This document shows, one piece after another, positions 20,071-28,786 of a stretch of 33,869 nucleotides of DNA. The DNA is from Alphaproteobacteria bacterium (lineage in GTDB: Bacteria; Pseudomonadota; Alphaproteobacteria; JAEUKQ01). How positions within the stretch are numbered: position 1 is the first letter of the stretch; each line of letters begins with the position of its first letter. The notes beneath the pieces were generated by a model, which saw only the letters and a program-made list of their open reading frames with translations, was not told the DNA's origin and searched no databases. The translations under genes and the position numbers were made by a program. The stretch is from NCBI GenBank assembly GCA_016794225.1, contig JAEUKQ010000012.1:1-33869 (forward strand), read 5' to 3'.

Positions 20071-21852
20071 ATGGATTTATTTAGGGTTTTTTATCATCAG
20101 TTGATGAAAAGCATTGCTTTGATTTGGCCGCAAGCCTATCAATCTGGCGATTTGGGTGCTGTACAGGTCGAACAGCCTCGTGATAGTAAATTTGGTGATT
20201 TAAGCACCAATGCAGCACTAATCATAGGTAAAAAGTTGCGTTTACCACCGATCGAGGTTGCCAATAAGCTTATACAGCATATTAAAACCTATGATGATGT
20301 TGCTGCGGTTGAAGTGGTGGCACCAGGTTTTCTTAATTGCCGTTTGCATGAACAAAGTTGGCGCCAGGTTCTTCACCATATTATTAAGTCCGATATGAAT
20401 TATGGTGATAGCCAAATTGGGCAAGGCCAACATATTAATGTTGAATATGTTTCTGCCAATCCAACTGGTCCGTTGCACTTGGCACATGCACGTGGTGCGG
20501 TTGTGGGTGATGCATTGGCATCGTTGCTGCTGAAGGCTGGATACCATGTTACCAAAGAATATTACATAAACGATGCTGGTGCTCAGGTCGATGTATTGGC
20601 TAATTCAAGCTATTTGCGCTATCAAGAAGCATTAGGGGTCGATATTGGTGAAATACCAAGTGGTTATTACCCTGGTGAATATTTGAAAGATGTTGGTGCT
20701 GCTATTGCTAAGAAAGACGGGCGCAGATGGTTAAACCAAAGCCCCAAGGATTGGGTGCCTGTTTTTCGTCAATATGCTGTTCAGATGATGATGCAAAATA
20801 TTAAAACAGATTTGCTTGAACTTGGTATCAAACATGATCTTTTTTCGTCTGAAAAAGCACTTATTGACACAGGTGGGGTGGATCAGGCAATCGCTGAGTT
20901 AGAAAAAATGGGTTTAATCTATACGGGTATTCTCGAAGCACCCAAGGGTACAAAAGCCCCTGAAGATTGGGAACCAAGACCACAAATGCTGTTTCGGTCA
21001 ACTTCTTTTGGTGATGATGTAGATCGGCCACTGCGTAAATCCGATGGAAGTTGGACGTACTTTGCAACGGATATAGCCTATCAATTTAGTAAATTTCGGC
21101 GCGGTGATAAGGTGCTTATTAACGTTTGGGGTGCCGATCATGCCGGATATGTTAAAAGGTTACAGGCGGCTGTTGCGGCAATAACCGCAAATCAAGCGCG
21201 ATTTGAAGCCAGAATCTGTCAGATGGTACGTCTTTTGCGTGATGGTCAACCAGTTAAAATGTCAAAAAGGGCTGGAACTTTTGTAACTTTACGAGAAGTA
21301 ATGGATGAAGTTGGTCGGGATGTCGTACGTTTTATTATGCTGACCCGCAAAAATGATGCACCTCTTGATTTTGACCTAACAAAAGTCATTGATCAATCGC
21401 GGGACAATCCGGTTTATTATGTTCAGTATGCCCACGCCCGAACATGTTCTGTATGGCGCAGGCTGAAAAAAGATTTTCCACAGTTGTTGATTGATGAGCG
21501 TGATTTGCCAAAGGCTCAGTTCAATCGGTTAACTGATGAGGCCGAAATGACCTTGATAAAAATGTTAGGAACTTGGCCTAAAGTTGTTGAGTCAGCAGCT
21601 CAAGCCCAAGAACCACACCGTATTGCATATTATCTTTATGAGGTGGCGCATCTTTTCCATGTGCTGTATACAAAAGGAAAGGGTAAAGACGAAAGTAATC
21701 TGCGTTTTATTGTCCCCGAGCAAACAGATGTAACATTAGCGCGATTGGCACTGGTGCATAGTGTTGGAATTGTGATAAGATGTGGTCTGAAAATCATGGG
21801 TGTTGAACCGGTTACGGAGATGCAATATGAGTCCAGCACAACCAGCCTATAA
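20071..21852 (+). CDS. argS: Arginyl-tRNA synthetase
   Basis: A 593-residue class I aminoacyl-tRNA synthetase that charges tRNA-Arg. The N-terminal additional domain (about 1-115) includes KFGDLSTNAALIIGKKL. The HIGH-type motif appears as SANPTGPLHLAHARGA (HLAH at 136-139). The KMSKS-type loop is VKMSKRAGTFVTL (KMSKR, 396-400), and the C-terminal DALR anticodon-binding domain begins near DNPVYYVQYAHAR. Length is normal. Its last 26 bases overlap the start of the next gene (21827), suggesting translational coupling with the SPOR-domain protein. Confidence 0.97.
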   Translation: MDLFRVFYHQLMKSIALIWPQAYQSGDLGAVQVEQPRDSKFGDLSTNAALIIGKKLRLPPIEVANKLIQHIKTYDDVAAVEVVAPGFLNCRLHEQSWRQVLHHIIKSDMNYGDSQIGQGQHINVEYVSANPTGPLHLAHARGAVVGDALASLLLKAGYHVTKEYYINDAGAQVDVLANSSYLRYQEALGVDIGEIPSGYYPGEYLKDVGAAIAKKDGRRWLNQSPKDWVPVFRQYAVQMMMQNIKTDLLELGIKHDLFSSEKALIDTGGVDQAIAELEKMGLIYTGILEAPKGTKAPEDWEPRPQMLFRSTSFGDDVDRPLRKSDGSWTYFATDIAYQFSKFRRGDKVLINVWGADHAGYVKRLQAAVAAITANQARFEARICQMVRLLRDGQPVKMSKRAGTFVTLREVMDEVGRDVVRFIMLTRKNDAPLDFDLTKVIDQSRDNPVYYVQYAHARTCSVWRRLKKDFPQLLIDERDLPKAQFNRLTDEAEMTLIKMLGTWPKVVESAAQAQEPHRIAYYLYEVAHLFHVLYTKGKGKDESNLRFIVPEQTDVTLARLALVHSVGIVIRCGLKIMGVEPVTEMQYESSTTSL

Positions 21853-23266
21853 GCCAGGCTATTTAGACAATTCACAGGTAAATGAAAATGGTACAAAAAC
21901 AGTGCCTGTTGATGAATTTCCGAATCAGTCATACCGCCATACATCAGGTAATCCGAGGATTAACCGCCATATTGATATGGAAGACTGGCGTGAAGATAGC
22001 CCGGTTGCAAAACAGGGGCTTACGCTTCAATTGGATGAAGCATCTTTTCCTATTCAGCAAGCTGCCTATACCCTTGATGATCATCAAGAAATGCAGGTTG
22101 GTGAAGTAAATGTTGATCAACATGAGGTAGTAGGGGAAGACGATTATTCGATTAATAACAACCAGGATATACACCAAGATTATCAACCTCATGCCGGCTA
22201 TAACAAAACAAATCTTCATACAGCATCGACCAGTGGCAAGACAGAAACACCTTTTGTCAACCAACCAAAATATCAGCAGCCCATCCAACAGCCAAACTCT
22301 GCTTACGATTCAGGGCGTGATAATGATGAAGCGGGTAATTTGGATGAATATGACGAATATCAAGAAAATATGTCAGCCGATGATGTCGACAGTGTGACAA
22401 GCCAAATTCAACCGGAATCCACGGATAGTTATGAAGATAATGTACCCCAATTCTTGCAGGGTGGATCTGCAACAACCAATCATTCTGCTGGGCAAGTTAA
22501 GCCAGAAGCTGCACATAACAATCGGCATAGGATTGTAATTTTTTCTGGTGTTGGCGCACTTTTAGTGATTGTAGTTGCGGTGATTGCATGGCCGGGAAGT
22601 CGAAACCAAGTTCCTGTTAACCCCGATTCATTACCAATTATTACAGCGGAAGCAACGCCCATCAGGGCTAAACCTGTGGCTGGGGAAAACAATGCTCAAG
22701 AGTTACAAATTTATCAAGGTATAACTGGCTCTAACACCAATCCTGAGCGTGTTGAAACATTATTACCCGGACCCGAAAATCCAATGAATCCAGGAGAACC
22801 AGTTGCTGTTAACCCAAATAGTGGAGATGGTAATCCTTCGAATGTAACTGGTGTTTCTGCTGGGAATACAGCAGGTGCTTCTATGGCAACAATTGTTATG
22901 GAATTGCCGCCATTGAAACCAGCTGCGCAGAATGCCGGTCTTCAAACACCGGTTGTCAGTAACGCGAATAATAACGTCGTTAATAATACCCAAATAACGT
23001 CTAGTCCTGCTGGAATTTATTATGCCCAATTAGCCTCGGTACGGTCACCTGATGGTGCCCAAGCCGCTGCCACTAAGTTTGAGCGCGATTTATCGGCTGT
23101 ATTGGGAACGGTAAAAATGCAAGTAAAGAAAGTTGATTTGGGTGCGAACAAGGGGTTTACCTACCGCGTCGTTGCGGGACCAGTTGCAGATCGCAATACA
23201 GCCAATGTTCTTTGTCAAAATATTAAGAACAAGGGTCAAGATTGCATTGTTGCGTCAATGCCATGA
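21827..23266 (+). CDS. SPOR domain-containing membrane protein
   Basis: A 479-residue single-pass membrane protein. Residues 1-230 are a long, low-complexity cytoplasmic region rich in Asn, Gln, Asp and Tyr. One membrane helix follows at about 233-252 (IVIFSGVGALLVIVVAVIAW), then a flexible Pro/Asn-rich periplasmic linker, then a C-terminal SPOR domain (about 394-479: GIYYAQLASVRSPDGAQAAATKF to GQDCIVASMP). SPOR domains bind septal peptidoglycan stripped of stem peptides, so a role in division or wall remodelling is likely. The ATG at 21827 has GGAG 9 bases upstream and overlaps argS by 26 bases; its stop overlaps the nagZ start (ATGA). Pairing with NagZ, which handles peptidoglycan sugars, fits. 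Confidence 0.88.
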   Translation: MSPAQPAYKPGYLDNSQVNENGTKTVPVDEFPNQSYRHTSGNPRINRHIDMEDWREDSPVAKQGLTLQLDEASFPIQQAAYTLDDHQEMQVGEVNVDQHEVVGEDDYSINNNQDIHQDYQPHAGYNKTNLHTASTSGKTETPFVNQPKYQQPIQQPNSAYDSGRDNDEAGNLDEYDEYQENMSADDVDSVTSQIQPESTDSYEDNVPQFLQGGSATTNHSAGQVKPEAAHNNRHRIVIFSGVGALLVIVVAVIAWPGSRNQVPVNPDSLPIITAEATPIRAKPVAGENNAQELQIYQGITGSNTNPERVETLLPGPENPMNPGEPVAVNPNSGDGNPSNVTGVSAGNTAGASMATIVMELPPLKPAAQNAGLQTPVVSNANNNVVNNTQITSSPAGIYYAQLASVRSPDGAQAAATKFERDLSAVLGTVKMQVKKVDLGANKGFTYRVVAGPVADRNTANVLCQNIKNKGQDCIVASMP

Positions 23267-24225
23267 TCGCACCAATTATTGTTGGATTAGGTAGCCTTGT
23301 TTTAAGTTCGGCTGAAAAACAGCTTTTAAAACATTTTCGTCCAGCAGGTTTTATTATTTTTGGCCGCAATATTGATGAACCCAAACAAGTGCGGCACCTA
23401 ATATCATCGATCTGTCAGTTTTACGGTAGCCATAAATTCCTTTTTCTTATTGATCAGGAAGGTGGTCGTGTTTGTCGGTTAAAACCACCCCATTGGCGGC
23501 TTCCTCCACCTGCAAGATATTTCGGCGATTTATGGATTAAGGATCCACAAAAAGCGAAACAAGAATTGGCTAATAATGCGGTGTTAATTGCCCGCGAACT
23601 TACCGATCTTGGGCTTAATGCGGTTTGTGCCCCCGTGCTTGATTTGATTATTGATGGACAAGACCCAATTATTGGTGATAGGGCTTTTTCATCAGACCCA
23701 GATATTGTTGCCAAGCTTGGTCGTTGTATGGCCGAGACTTATTTAAATCAGCATATTTTGCCAATAATAAAACACATTCCAGGTCATGGACGTGCAAAGG
23801 TTGACAGCCATCACCATCTGCCGCGTATTACGGAAGATTTGACGCTGCTGAAAAAAACCGATTTTAGGCCATTTCAGTTGCTGGCCGATATGCCTATGGC
23901 TATGACCGCCCATATTCAGATTGATGGGATTGACCCTGACCGACCAGTAACAACATCGCCAGCTCTTATTAAAAAAGTTATTCGCGATATCATTGGGTTT
24001 CAAGGAATATTGTTGTCGGATGATCTTTCTATGAAAGCTTTATCAGGTACAATAGCCGAACGTACCCGACAATCGCTGTTAGCCGGATGTCAACTGGTTT
24101 TGCATTGTAATGGCGATTTGGGCGAGATAGAACAGGTTGTGACAGCGGCTGGATCAATCGATGCGACAACCGAACATTTGTTGAATACATTGCATCATCA
24201 ATACTTGTTGACCCAAGGTATATAA
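23263..24225 (+). CDS. nagZ: Beta-N-acetylhexosaminidase NagZ
   Basis: A 320-residue cytoplasmic glycoside hydrolase of family 3, removing N-acetylglucosamine from muropeptide fragments during peptidoglycan recycling. It shows LIDQEGGRVCRL with D64, the mobile catalytic loop KHIPGHGRAKVDSHHHLP (170-187) carrying the family's Asp/His dyad, and the nucleophile region LLSDDLSMKAL (250-260). Only one domain is present, normal for NagZ. The start at 23263 overlaps the stop of the SPOR gene in an ATGA; an in-frame ATG 21 bases earlier lies inside that gene. In many alphaproteobacteria scpA and scpB follow; here a beta-barrel gene does. Confidence 0.94.
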   Translation: MIAPIIVGLGSLVLSSAEKQLLKHFRPAGFIIFGRNIDEPKQVRHLISSICQFYGSHKFLFLIDQEGGRVCRLKPPHWRLPPPARYFGDLWIKDPQKAKQELANNAVLIARELTDLGLNAVCAPVLDLIIDGQDPIIGDRAFSSDPDIVAKLGRCMAETYLNQHILPIIKHIPGHGRAKVDSHHHLPRITEDLTLLKKTDFRPFQLLADMPMAMTAHIQIDGIDPDRPVTTSPALIKKVIRDIIGFQGILLSDDLSMKALSGTIAERTRQSLLAGCQLVLHCNGDLGEIEQVVTAAGSIDATTEHLLNTLHHQYLLTQGI

Positions 24226-24364
24226 TATTTTGGTTATGTTTTTTGTAATGATACGCAAAAAAATTACGTAATATACTGTAACAAAAGGTTATTTGCTTTG
24301 GGAGGAAGAAAATTAATAAAAATACTAGTCTGAACGGATGAGTTATTAGGGATATTTAGTCATC

Positions 24365-25027
24365 ATGAAAAAATCATGTTTTATATTTGGTATTTTAATG
24401 GGGGCTTTTATAGTGAATTCTGCGGCTCAAGCACAGGAAAAAGACTATAGAAAAGGGATATATGTTGGATTAAAGACTTCCATGTTTTTTAGCCCTAGCT
24501 GGCAGAATACTTTAGAAATTAATGGATTAGGAAATTTTCATCAAAAATCTAAACTTGGTTTTGCTTTGCAAGCTTCAGTTGGTTATGATTGGGGTAAACA
24601 TCTGCGCTCGGAGATCGAGGTTGGATACAAATTTCATCAAACAAAAAATCTAATTGGCTCTGGCGCTACCATTGAAACAGGCGGACGTATTAACCAAATT
24701 ACCTTGAAAGAAAACTTGTATATTGATATTCCATTAGGGCATAAAATTGAATTTTTTGTTGGTGGTGGGTTTGGATTATCAATTGTCAGTTCAAAAAATT
24801 ACCATATAGAAAGTACCAATCAAAAAATTATTAAAGGAAGTACTATTGCCTTTTCTTATCAATTCATGACGGGTCTTGGCTATCAAATGACAAACGATAT
24901 AGTGTTAAGTTTTGAATATCGTTACAGTCAGACACGAGAAAAGCGTCTTAAGAATAATTCTGGTCTTAAGGTGGATGGCGATTTTAATGCCCACCAAATT
25001 GGTTTTGGAATTCGTTATACTTTCTAA
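24365..25027 (+). CDS. Outer-membrane beta-barrel protein
   Basis: A 220-residue protein with a signal peptide (MKKSCFIFGILMGAFIVNSAAQAQ) and a mature part of about eight amphipathic strands, of the OmpA/OmpW-like porin-family barrel type. Examples are GIYVGLKTSMFFSP, KLGFALQASVGYDWG, LRSEIEVGYKF, EFFVGGGFGLSIVS, FSYQFMTGLGYQM and IVLSFEYRYSQT. It ends HQIGFGIRYTF, with the terminal Phe typical of outer-membrane proteins recognised by the BAM machinery. Function is unknown (adhesion, small pore or stress). It sits in the nagZ-tatA junction, where scpA/scpB usually lie, with its own terminator. The start has only a weak AGGG site; a strong GGGAGGAAG at 24300-24308 precedes no start codon. Confidence 0.8.
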   Translation: MKKSCFIFGILMGAFIVNSAAQAQEKDYRKGIYVGLKTSMFFSPSWQNTLEINGLGNFHQKSKLGFALQASVGYDWGKHLRSEIEVGYKFHQTKNLIGSGATIETGGRINQITLKENLYIDIPLGHKIEFFVGGGFGLSIVSSKNYHIESTNQKIIKGSTIAFSYQFMTGLGYQMTNDIVLSFEYRYSQTREKRLKNNSGLKVDGDFNAHQIGFGIRYTF

Positions 25028-25060
25028 TAAGTTAAAATTTTTGGAAAAAGTATTTTAATG

Positions 25061-25091
25061 AAAACCGGAAGTGATAGCTTCCGGTTTTTTT
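25061..25091 (+). terminator. Intrinsic terminator after the beta-barrel gene
   Basis: AAAACCGGAAG (25061-25071) pairs perfectly with CTTCCGGTTTT (25078-25088) around the loop TGATAG, followed by further T residues. It ends the barrel gene's transcript 33 bases after its stop, so the tat genes downstream need their own promoter in 25092-25258, which I could not pin down. Confidence 0.85.
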
Positions 25092-25258
25092 CTTGTGTAA
25101 TGGATTGAGTTTAATTTATGATGTAAATGTATTATCGATAATTAAAATTGTTCTTCGACATATATGATAAGGTAAAATATGGGCGTGCATATGTCCGGCT
25201 TATGGGTTTTGTATGGTGCCAGGTTGGTGCAGTTGGAACGTTTTTGATGGAGTAATAA

Positions 25259-25480
25259 ATGGGCAGTTGGAGTTGGATCCATTGGTTAATTGTGCTTGTT
25301 GTTGTATTGGTGCTGTTTGGTGGTGGCGGTAAGATTCCTAAACTTATGCGCGATTTAGGCCAGGGGATTACAGCATTCAAAAAAGGGTTGAAAGAAGATA
25401 AATCTGCCAGCAATAACCAAGAAAAGCAAGCTGTTGAAAATGCCAAGCAAAACAGCAAGGACGAAGAAAAAACATCCTAG
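25259..25480 (+). CDS. tatA: Sec-independent protein translocase subunit TatA
   Basis: A 73-residue pore-forming subunit of the twin-arginine export system. It has a short N-terminal membrane helix ([15 protein letters not shown]), the hinge GGGGKIP, then an amphipathic helix [20 protein letters not shown] and a charged tail. Length and pattern match TatA rather than TatB. A GGAG ribosome site precedes the ATG. It starts the tatABC cluster, 37 bases before tatB. Confidence 0.94.
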
Positions 25481-25517: not shown

Positions 25518-25880
25518 ATGTTTGACATTGGTTGGAGCGAAATTTTTATTATTGCCCTTTTGGCGCTAGTTTTGCTGGGGCCAAAAGAGATACCCGATGT
25601 ACTAAAGGCTGTTACTGGTTTTATCCGTCGTGTTCGTGGGTTAGCCGGTGATTTTCAGCGTGGCGTCAATCAAATTATTCACGAAACCGAATTAGACGAG
25701 GTACGCCGCACCCTCGAAAAAACAAACCCAAATACCATAACCCAGCAGGTTCAGGAAGAAATGGGGTTGCCTAACATGCAAGACGTACCTGTTTTGGATA
25801 AGGCCGATAACCTAACAAACAATGCAAATAACCAACCACAAAAAACAACCAGCACTGCAGATGGTCGTAAGGAATCATGA
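25518..25880 (+). CDS. tatB: Sec-independent protein translocase subunit TatB
   Basis: A 120-residue subunit that, with TatC, recognises twin-arginine signal peptides. It begins MFDIGWSEIFIIALLALVLLGPKEIPDVLKAVTGFIRRVR, with the LGPKEIP turn diagnostic of TatB, then an amphipathic helix and an Asn/Gln-rich tail. It overlaps tatC by 4 bases (ATGA, 25877-25880). Confidence 0.94.
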   Translation: MFDIGWSEIFIIALLALVLLGPKEIPDVLKAVTGFIRRVRGLAGDFQRGVNQIIHETELDEVRRTLEKTNPNTITQQVQEEMGLPNMQDVPVLDKADNLTNNANNQPQKTTSTADGRKES

Positions 25881-26647
25881 CAAAAACGGGTGATGATAAG
25901 TCAATGCCCTTGATGGATCATGTGCTGGAATTGCGGCGCAGGTTATTGTACAGCCTGTTGATCTTTATAATTATTTTTATCATTTGCTTTTATTTTGCCC
26001 AAGAAATTTTTAACTTTTTAGCACAACCGCTTGCAAATATCCTTATGCAACAAACAGGACGTCGTTTTATTTTTACCGACCTTACCGAATTTTTATTTAC
26101 TCAGATCAAATTGGCTTTTTTTACCGCACTATCGCTTTCCTTTCCTTTATTTGCAAACCAGTTCTGGAAATTCATTGCCCCAGGTTTGTACCGGCAAGAA
26201 AAATTGGTGGTGCTTCCATTTTTAATTGCAAGCCCCTTGTTATTTGTGTTGGGGGCAGCTTTATTGTATTACATTTTACTGCCATATGGGTGGGAATTTT
26301 TACTTAGTTTTCAGACCGGTGGCAACATAGGGACTTTGCCGGTCGAGTTTGAAGGCAAGGTTAGCGAATATGTCGGGCTTATTATTAAGTTAATTTTTGC
26401 TTTTGGCATTTGCTTCCAATTACCTGTTTTGTTGGTTTTATTGGTCAGAGCAGGGATTATGAAGGCTAAAACCCTGTCACAAAAAAGACGTCATGCCATT
26501 GTTTTGGTCTTTATTGTTGCAGCGATTGTAACCCCACCTGATCCTTTCAGCCAAATTGCCTTGGCCGTCCCTTTGGTTTTATTATACGAAATTGCCATAA
26601 TCGCAGCACGAATTATTGAACGTAAGCGCTTAAACAACGAAAAATGA
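25877..26647 (+). CDS. tatC: Sec-independent protein translocase subunit TatC
   Basis: A 256-residue six-helix membrane protein, the core of the twin-arginine receptor. It begins with a cytoplasmic MPLMDHVLELRRRLLYSLLIF, containing the conserved HxxELRxR element. It goes on to PLFANQFWKFIAPGLYRQEKLVVLPFLIASPLLFVLGA, with the FAPGLY-type motif and conserved Glu, and the conserved late segment ATPPD-like VTPPDPFSQ. Fully intact, translationally coupled to tatB. Confidence 0.95.
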   Translation: MTKTGDDKSMPLMDHVLELRRRLLYSLLIFIIIFIICFYFAQEIFNFLAQPLANILMQQTGRRFIFTDLTEFLFTQIKLAFFTALSLSFPLFANQFWKFIAPGLYRQEKLVVLPFLIASPLLFVLGAALLYYILLPYGWEFLLSFQTGGNIGTLPVEFEGKVSEYVGLIIKLIFAFGICFQLPVLLVLLVRAGIMKAKTLSQKRRHAIVLVFIVAAIVTPPDPFSQIALAVPLVLLYEIAIIAARIIERKRLNNEK

Positions 26648-26731: not shown

Positions 26732-28000
26732 ATGATTGATATAAAATTTGTGCGTGATAATCCAAAAGAATTTAAAGAATATCTTATCAAACGTCATGTT
26801 AAGGTTGATGTTGATGAGATATTAAAAATTGATGGTGAGCGTCGCACCACCATAACTGAATTGCAAAACCTGCAGCAAAAGCGCAATGATTTGTCTCGAG
26901 AAATTGGCCAATTGCGACAAAATAAGGAACTGGCAGATAAATTAATGGTTCAGGTTGCCGATATCAAAGCCAGGATGGAAAGTTATGAAAAAAAAGAACG
27001 CGAATTAAGTGAACGCCTGGATCAATTTTTGCTGTATCTTCCAAATATTCCGGCCAAAGATGTTCCCTTTGGTCATAACGAAACCGGAAATGTGGAGATA
27101 AAAAGATGGGGTAAATTAACCAACTTTGCCTTTACACCCAAACTGCATGATGAGTTGGGTGAAAAATTGCGTTTAATGGATTTTACAAGTGCCGCCAATT
27201 TGTCGGGTGCTCGCTTTGTAGTTCTTAAGGGGATTTTGGCTAAACTTGAAAGGGCGTTGGCTTATTTCATGCTTGATATTCATACCAACGAATTTGGTTA
27301 TACCGAAATATTGCCCCCCTTTATGGTGCGTGATCAGGCGTTAATTGGCACCGGCCAATTGCCAAAATTTGCAGATGACCTTTTCAGAACAACCAGCGGT
27401 TTGTGGCTGATACCTACGGCCGAGGTGCCATTAACCAACCTAGTTGCAAGCCAAATACTTGATGAAACCCAATTACCACTCCGCGTAACGGCCTGGACAC
27501 CTTGCTTTCGTTCAGAAGCCGGGGCTGCAGGGCGAGATACCAAAGGTATGTTGCGCCAGCATCAGTTTAGCAAAGTCGAATTGGTTAGCATTGCGGCCCC
27601 TGAACACTCGGTTGCCGAGCACGAGCGTATGACAAGCTGCGCTGAAGCGGTGCTTGAGCGCTTAGAGCTGCCCTATCGTCGGATGTTATTGTGTTCAGGT
27701 GACATGGGTGCAACATCACAAAAAACCTATGATTTAGAGGTTTGGCTACCCGGGCAAAAACTGTACCGTGAAATTTCCAGTTGTTCTAATTGTGGCGATT
27801 ACCAGGCGCGACGTATGCAATCCAAGTTTCGCAGTAAGGGTCAAAAAAATACCCAGTTTGTTCACACACTTAATGGGTCGGGGTTGGCGGTTGGGCGTAC
27901 CATGATTGCCGTTCTTGAAAATTATCAGCAAGCTGATGGAAAGATTGCGGTGCCAGACGCTTTACAGCCATATATAGGTGGGTTAAAGGTGATCGGCTAA
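26732..28000 (+). CDS. serS: Seryl-tRNA synthetase
   Basis: A 422-residue class II aminoacyl-tRNA synthetase charging tRNA-Ser (and tRNA-Sec where present). The N-terminal coiled-coil arm that grips the tRNA spans about residues 28-100 (repeating charged heptads, [18 protein letters not shown]). Class II motif 2 is [27 protein letters not shown], and motif 3 is [19 protein letters not shown] near the C-terminus; TAEVPLTN is the serine-pocket segment. Length is standard. The next gene begins directly at the following base. Confidence 0.97.
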
Positions 28001-28786
28001 ATGGTGAAGAATCTAGAAAATCTTGAAAAATTGCGTATTCTGGTAACCAATGATGATGGTATTTTGGCGCCCGGGATTAAAGTGTTACAAAAGGCGGTAC
28101 AATCCATCACGAAAGATATTTGGGTATCCGCACCAACAACCGAACAAAGCGCAACCAGCCATTCTTTAACCATTCGGCGACCGATTGAGGTAAGACACCT
28201 ATCGTCACGTCGCTTTGCTGTTGAAGGAACACCAACAGATAGTGTTTTACTGGCTGTTAATCACCTTATTACAGGGCGCAGGCCAGATTTAGTTGTATCA
28301 GGGGTTAATCGCGGGGCAAACCTAGCCGAAGATATTGGCTATTCTGGAACGGTAGCAGCCGCTATGGAAGCAACTTTGCTTGGGATTCCAGCCATTGCCT
28401 TTAATCAACTGCGTCATGAACAGCATGTTTACTGGACAATAGCCGAACATTATATTCCCGTCGTTCTTGAAAAACTTAGGCATTTTGATTGGCCTAGCGG
28501 CGTGTTGCTCAACGTCAACTTTCCGCATTGTCCGGTTGCTGACGTTAAGGGCATAAAGCTGACAGCGCAGGGGTGGCGTGCCGGAAACGTCCAGGTTCAT
28601 CCTGTCAAAGACCCAACAGGCAGGCCATATCTTTGGATTGGTGATTTTAGTGATCACGCATCAAGGCAAAATGGGCAAATGGACGATTTAACTGCGGTTG
28701 ATAATCATTATATTTCAATTACACCTTTGCATCTTGATTTTACCCATTATCCAACATTCAAGAAATTACAGCAGGTTTTTGCATGA
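28001..28786 (+). CDS. surE: 5'/3'-nucleotidase SurE
   Basis: A 261-residue metal-dependent survival protein that dephosphorylates nucleoside monophosphates. The signature ILVTNDDGILAPGI carries the two metal-binding Asps. APTTEQSATSHSLTI supplies the conserved serine, and SGVNRGANLAEDIGYSGTVAAAMEATLLGIPAIAFNQ contains the conserved Asn. The start ATG immediately follows the serS stop, so translation probably continues from serS; a few N-terminal residues before LRILVTNDD are not conserved. It overlaps pcm by 4 bases (ATGA, 28783-28786), the classic surE-pcm pairing. Confidence 0.95.
   Translation: MVKNLENLEKLRILVTNDDGILAPGIKVLQKAVQSITKDIWVSAPTTEQSATSHSLTIRRPIEVRHLSSRRFAVEGTPTDSVLLAVNHLITGRRPDLVVSGVNRGANLAEDIGYSGTVAAAMEATLLGIPAIAFNQLRHEQHVYWTIAEHYIPVVLEKLRHFDWPSGVLLNVNFPHCPVADVKGIKLTAQGWRAGNVQVHPVKDPTGRPYLWIGDFSDHASRQNGQMDDLTAVDNHYISITPLHLDFTHYPTFKKLQQVFA

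Follow-up and report, generated by a model that had tools for sequence, protein, structure and literature searches.

The Smc-ScpAB condensin is usually described as nearly ubiquitous. Alternative condensins of the MukBEF and MksBEF types are also known (PMC4255302). There are precedents for the loss of Smc-ScpAB, and the genome described here shares with other Smc-less genomes a small chromosome in which no Smc, kleisin or kite subunit was found. It differs from them in bearing a clear, lineage-specific scar, readable at a conserved locus whose intact arrangement survives within the same order. Two further differences are that the loss seems to have recurred within one class and that ParB was not found either.

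The locus lies between nagZ and tatA. A sequence-only reading of the window, by which we mean the whole stretch of 33,869 nucleotides analysed here, held that in many alphaproteobacteria nagZ is followed by scpA, scpB and tatA, and that in this junction an outer-membrane barrel gene takes the place of scpA and scpB. It left two possibilities: the two genes are encoded elsewhere or they have been lost. Gene order and profile searches now argue strongly for loss. A segment carrying a gene for an M50-type protease, scpA and scpB was very probably deleted as the whole Smc-ScpAB complex was lost, and the barrel gene sits in the gap.

Results

The nagZ-tatA junction holds a single beta-barrel gene

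The window is one contig (C33) of an assembly that we label G000. This assembly comprises 1,624,798 bases (1.62 Mb) in 147 contigs, with completeness and contamination estimated by tool at 100% and 1.65. On the + strand, which carries every feature given below, the genes run argS, SPOR-domain gene, nagZ, barrel gene, tatA, tatB, tatC, serS, surE, pcm; the names argS, serS, surE and pcm are our assumption from gene order and similarity. The conserved block starts with argS (20071 to 21852), which shows blastp synteny with locus L105 of G001, the other genome of the order among those compared. The SPOR-domain gene follows (21800 to 23266; PF05036, E = 1.3e-7) and has an equivalent position in G001. 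Its stop is overlapped by the ATG, at 23263, of nagZ, which encodes beta-N-acetylhexosaminidase and forms the left border of the junction (23263 to 24225; PF00933, E = 1.8e-52; NCBIfam NF003740, 218.7 bits against a cut-off of 207).

At the right border lies tatA (25259 to 25480; PF02416, E = 1.2e-12; TIGR01411, 69.3 bits, cut-off 53.9). It is followed by tatB (25518 to 25880; TIGR01410, 76 bits, cut-off 56.5) and tatC (25877 to 26647; PF00902, E = 4.4e-69). The genes serS and surE (26732 to 28786) extend the block common to G001; they are 62% and 54% identical to their G001 counterparts and stand in identical order.

Between these borders the barrel gene stands alone (24365 to 25027). It encodes 220 amino acids, with a signal peptide, eight predicted beta-strands and a C-terminal F, and has a GC content of 33.8% (PF13505, E = 1.7e-17). 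Its intergenic leader (24226 to 24364; 139 bases, 27% GC) contains a promoter-like site at 24248-24277, although such sites are not above chance in the region (7 found against 8.9 expected). Behind the gene is an intrinsic terminator (25060 to 25089) with a 13-pair stem and a T run; its predicted fold has an energy of -18.4 kcal/mol (z -5.5), equalled by 0 of 200 shuffles. Open reading frames, profiles and the terminator fold thus bear out the gene order and coordinates of the earlier reading.

Because the contig is unbroken across the junction, the absence of scpAB there is no assembly gap. Nor did the junction yield remnants of scpA or scpB (best tblastn E values 0.24 and 0.29). The same is true of the M50 protease: one tblastn match at E = 0.006 falls within the intact barrel frame and rises to 0.22 on the whole window.

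The sequence-only reading had also pointed to an orphan Shine-Dalgarno sequence as what might be left of a deleted gene. The purine run GGGAGGAAG does lie at the stated place (24300 to 24308), without a start codon at the usual distance; the next ATG, at 24338, opens a frame of 3 codons. As a relic it does not hold up. Allowing one mismatch, the window has 2 matches to GGGAGGAAG against 3.0 expected, which is chance level, and no coding trace of scpA, scpB or the M50 gene accompanies it. The run may simply be part of the 5' leader of the barrel gene.

Relatives retain scpA and scpB at this position

The expected order holds in 26 named alphaproteobacterial loci, which were chosen by similarity to the window's NagZ and so are not a random sample. 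In all 26, scpA is the next gene after nagZ, with an M50 gene detected between the two in 4; scpB is then present in 25. We found tatA downstream in 13, and the remainder run out of contig or flank or give no match.

The closest comparison is G001. Its block reads argS, SPOR, a 135-codon gene, nagZ, M50, scpA, scpB, tatA, tatB, tatC, serS, surE, pcm, where we name the M50-type protease from its sequence and not from a profile match. This protease gene, the third that G001 carries between nagZ and tatA along with scpA and scpB, is likewise missing from the window's junction; the search for it in G000 covered 803,494 bases. The order to which the window belongs is represented by two genomes only among those compared, G000 and G001, so 'loss' rests on this one close comparison together with the class-wide pattern.

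Could the barrel gene be ancestral at the junction and scpAB an insertion in other lineages? The present order of G000 is all that speaks for this, and we give it almost no credence. The G001 junction has M50-scpA-scpB and no barrel gene. A barrel query found no match in any of the 26 named junctions, where scpA invariably follows nagZ, and none of the other matches listed for it adjoins a listed nagZ. The comparison of sister lineages thus turned up no relatives that share the junction without a history of scpAB.

Loss from an intact block, the reading we prefer, can also be placed in time. In a NagZ tree G000 is sister to G001 (support 97/98); since the two group together, the loss came after their split. 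Elsewhere the tree is poorly resolved, with 20 of 31 inner branches open. Counting losses on it left their number unsettled: 5 changes are needed and only 2 are forced.

Other genomes without ScpAB have scars of their own. In G011 nagZ is joined to tatA with 7 bases between them. G006 and G021 keep nagZ-M50 with no scpAB after it, the G006 contig ending soon afterwards. These scars differ from nagZ-barrel-tatA, which would fit separate deletions.

ScpA, ScpB and Smc were not found in the genome

We searched G000 and 40 other genomes with profiles for the three subunits. For ScpA (PF02616) G000 gave 0 matches and 0 first-look candidates, and a repeat of this search by itself agreed; the profile was positive in 26 of the 41 genomes and in 9 of 14 controls. 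ScpB (PF04079) likewise gave 0 matches and 0 candidates in G000 and was positive in the identical 26. For Smc (TIGR02168), an ATPase of about 1150 amino acids, 12 of 17 candidates in G000 were scored. The best reached 22 bits, where the cut-off is 567, and came from a coiled-coil frame of 406 amino acids. Full-length Smc scores about 700-870 bits in most ScpAB-bearing genomes and 813.5 bits in G001.

A broader SMC_N search of G000, with all 43 candidates scored, returned frames of 382 and 566 amino acids as its best two matches, the other 23 being weaker. The first is RecF, adjoining dnaN and gyrB; the second, by its size, is presumably RecN. Neither smc nor an scpAB block was found in the stretches of G000 that we read (803,494 bases, 49.5% of the genome).

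The three proteins tend to be absent together. All 15 genomes without ScpA are also without ScpB, and in 14 of these no Smc match surpasses about 1e-9. G024 stands apart: it is 71% complete and has, at C6:31853-34267, a Smc that is short at about 820 codons. Conversely, TIGR02168 found Smc in 24 of the 26 genomes with ScpAB, G030 and G033 having no detectable full Smc. In G030 (100% complete) nagZ and scpAB are on different contigs, and scpAB adjoins what by eye is a UvrA-like frame.

The three genes might instead be present in unassembled parts of G000, scpAB having moved away from nagZ. The assembly is in 147 contigs, many under 1 kb, and only the scpAB site was read directly, which leaves room for Smc above all to fall in a gap; G030 and G033 may be cases in which assembly has dropped such genes. 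Against this, the completeness of G000 is put at 100%. Two separate gaps would be needed, since scpAB and smc are on different contigs in G001, as well as the move of scpAB. Moreover, all three proteins are missing together in 13 of the 14 other ScpB-less genomes among the 41. We consider this explanation improbable.

Slightly less probable still is replacement of the condensin by a diverged complex of the MukBEF or MksBEF type that our models missed. That such complexes exist as alternatives gives the idea its appeal. Yet PF13835, which we take to be the MksE family (MksE/JetB), was found in none of the 41 genomes, G000 included, while the control, Corynebacterium glutamicum, was positive. 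As for the MksB or MukB ATPase, on which the SMC_N search is the sole evidence, the best two of its 25 matches in G000 are frames of RecF and RecN size.

Of the two possibilities left by the earlier reading, then, loss stands and a location elsewhere does not. The genes scpA and scpB have gone from the junction, and searches across the genome found neither of their products in G000, nor Smc.

ParB was not found either

The ParB profile (TIGR00180) gave 0 matches in G000, with 4 of 4 candidates scored. It was positive in 37 of the 41 genomes; among the 31 high-quality genomes G000 alone had no match, the other 30 being positive. ParB is kept in eight other high-quality genomes lacking Smc-ScpAB (G006, G007, G011, G014, G020, G021, G025 and G039).

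In G001 the locus reads mnmE-mnmG-rsmG-parA-parB and has an exact parS site and one with a single mismatch, by the parS consensus that we assumed. Exact sites number four in G006 and two in G021, with none in the region of G011. With up to two mismatches, G000 has 0 sites in 803,494 bases; these include the whole 58-kb dnaA-dnaN-recF-gyrB contig, and the rsmG-mnmG region was not met there. With three mismatches there are 7 against 6.0 expected.

The genes rsmG, mnmG, parA and parB were not found in the 49.5% of G000 that was read. Matches there to mnmE, rho, pmbA and ccrM were weak only, and we took them for paralogues. Since neither mnmG nor rsmG is in the half that was read, a gap or an unread locus could hide parAB. 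We put the chance that ParB has been lost at about even. That G000 has lost both the Smc-ScpAB loop extruder and the loader and partition system ParABS, and copies its 1.6-Mb chromosome without either, has a little under an even chance.

The barrel protein

The barrel protein is an ordinary one of its kind: it matches PF13505 (OMP_b-brl) with 64.6 bits, above the curated cut-off of 28.7. AlphaFold2, from a seven-row alignment, predicts eight long strands (mean pLDDT 76.3, pTM 0.69). The signal peptide was recognized by eye and agrees with a predicted N-terminal helix. In Foldseek the best structural matches are Legionella Dot/Icm porin III (6e-9), OmpA and NspA. With these and OmpX/Ail, all OMP_b-brl proteins, it has in common a signal peptide, eight predicted strands and a terminal phenylalanine; unlike OmpA, it has no OmpA-like periplasmic domain. 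Identity to the solved structures listed as matches is below 20%, and a search by sequence found no solved structure at E up to 1. The best NCBIfam match is the Rickettsia adhesin Adr (NF052636; residues 55-218, E = 1.9e-10), but at 40.7 bits against a curated cut-off of 210 the barrel is a distant relative at most. Most likely it is a Sec-exported surface protein inserted by BAM, to judge from these models.

Where did the gene come from? It is AT-rich: the barrel gene has 34% GC, its leader spacer 27% and the other spacer 32%, against 42-44% for argS, spor, nagZ and tatA and 39-45% from tatB to pcm. A foreign origin need not be the cause: the composition usual for a membrane protein, or rapid evolution, could explain it instead. 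No close relative was found outside G000, the best being 33% identical. Within G000 the sole matched relative is a paralogue, 25-28% identical, on contig C66 (L118:1866-2588). By eye it lies between IspH-like and RNase H-like genes and is followed by terminator-like sequence. Phage cargo was considered and dropped, since neither 50,697 phage records nor PHROGs gave a match. Plasmid cargo was dropped too: of 11 plasmid matches 8 were listed, and these contain only relatives of 23-27% identity. Nothing ties the barrel to condensin function, and we read it as filling the gap, not as replacing the condensin.

Smc and ScpB are missing from many genomes of the class

In a sample of 385 genomes of the class, 254 have both ScpB and Smc, 107 neither, 10 Smc without ScpB and 14 ScpB without Smc. 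Two ScpB matches below the cut-off were counted as absent, and Smc was called absent if its best E value was above 1e-40. Two Smc candidates were scored per genome, which makes single absences of Smc provisional. For ScpB all candidates were scored in the entries listed, and 95 of the genomes without it were deduced from the list of positives.

Among the 107 double negatives are 82 with completeness of 90% or more and contamination of 5% or less; their median size is 1.5 Mb, and 72 of them are no larger than 2.0 Mb. Five families (f28, f45, f72, f81 and f108) have high-quality members of both states. Even one genus label, g183, holds both: G211 and G301 (1.5 Mb, one contig) on one side and G379 (5.6 Mb) on the other. 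With both states in five families and even in one genus label, several independent losses are likely, and loss of Smc-ScpAB seems recurrent in the class.

G282 (4.8 Mb), G287 (3.4 Mb) and G365 (4.4 Mb) are large and nearly complete, with no ScpB and no Smc among the two candidates scored. In their families, f72 and f81, the rest of the sampled members have both proteins.

Discussion

The history we propose starts from an ancestor with the order argS-spor-nagZ-M50-scpA-scpB-tatABC-serS-surE, as it still stands in G001. In the G000 lineage the M50-scpA-scpB segment would have been deleted. An unrelated barrel gene, self-contained with a leader and a terminator of its own, would have come into the gap, in one event or two. 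The deletion would then be the visible scar of losing the whole condensin. Smc and its two partners would go together because they form one working complex, as the pattern of joint absence suggests.

How would such a chromosome be segregated? At 1.62 Mb it would do without Smc-ScpAB and perhaps without ParABS, and no MksE was found. We infer that separation driven by replication and transcription, nucleoid proteins and clearance by FtsK, Xer and TopoIV may suffice for a chromosome this short.

Among the open-access papers listed by our searches we saw no survey reporting such loss for Alphaproteobacteria; most subscription papers fall outside that scope. The 107 of 385 genomes of the class that seem to be without ScpB and Smc, mostly of 2 Mb or less, speak against the view of near-ubiquity. 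If ParB is missing from G000 as well, this genome would represent segregation at a natural minimum. A loss that seems recurrent opens to testing the question of when a chromosome can dispense with loop extrusion.
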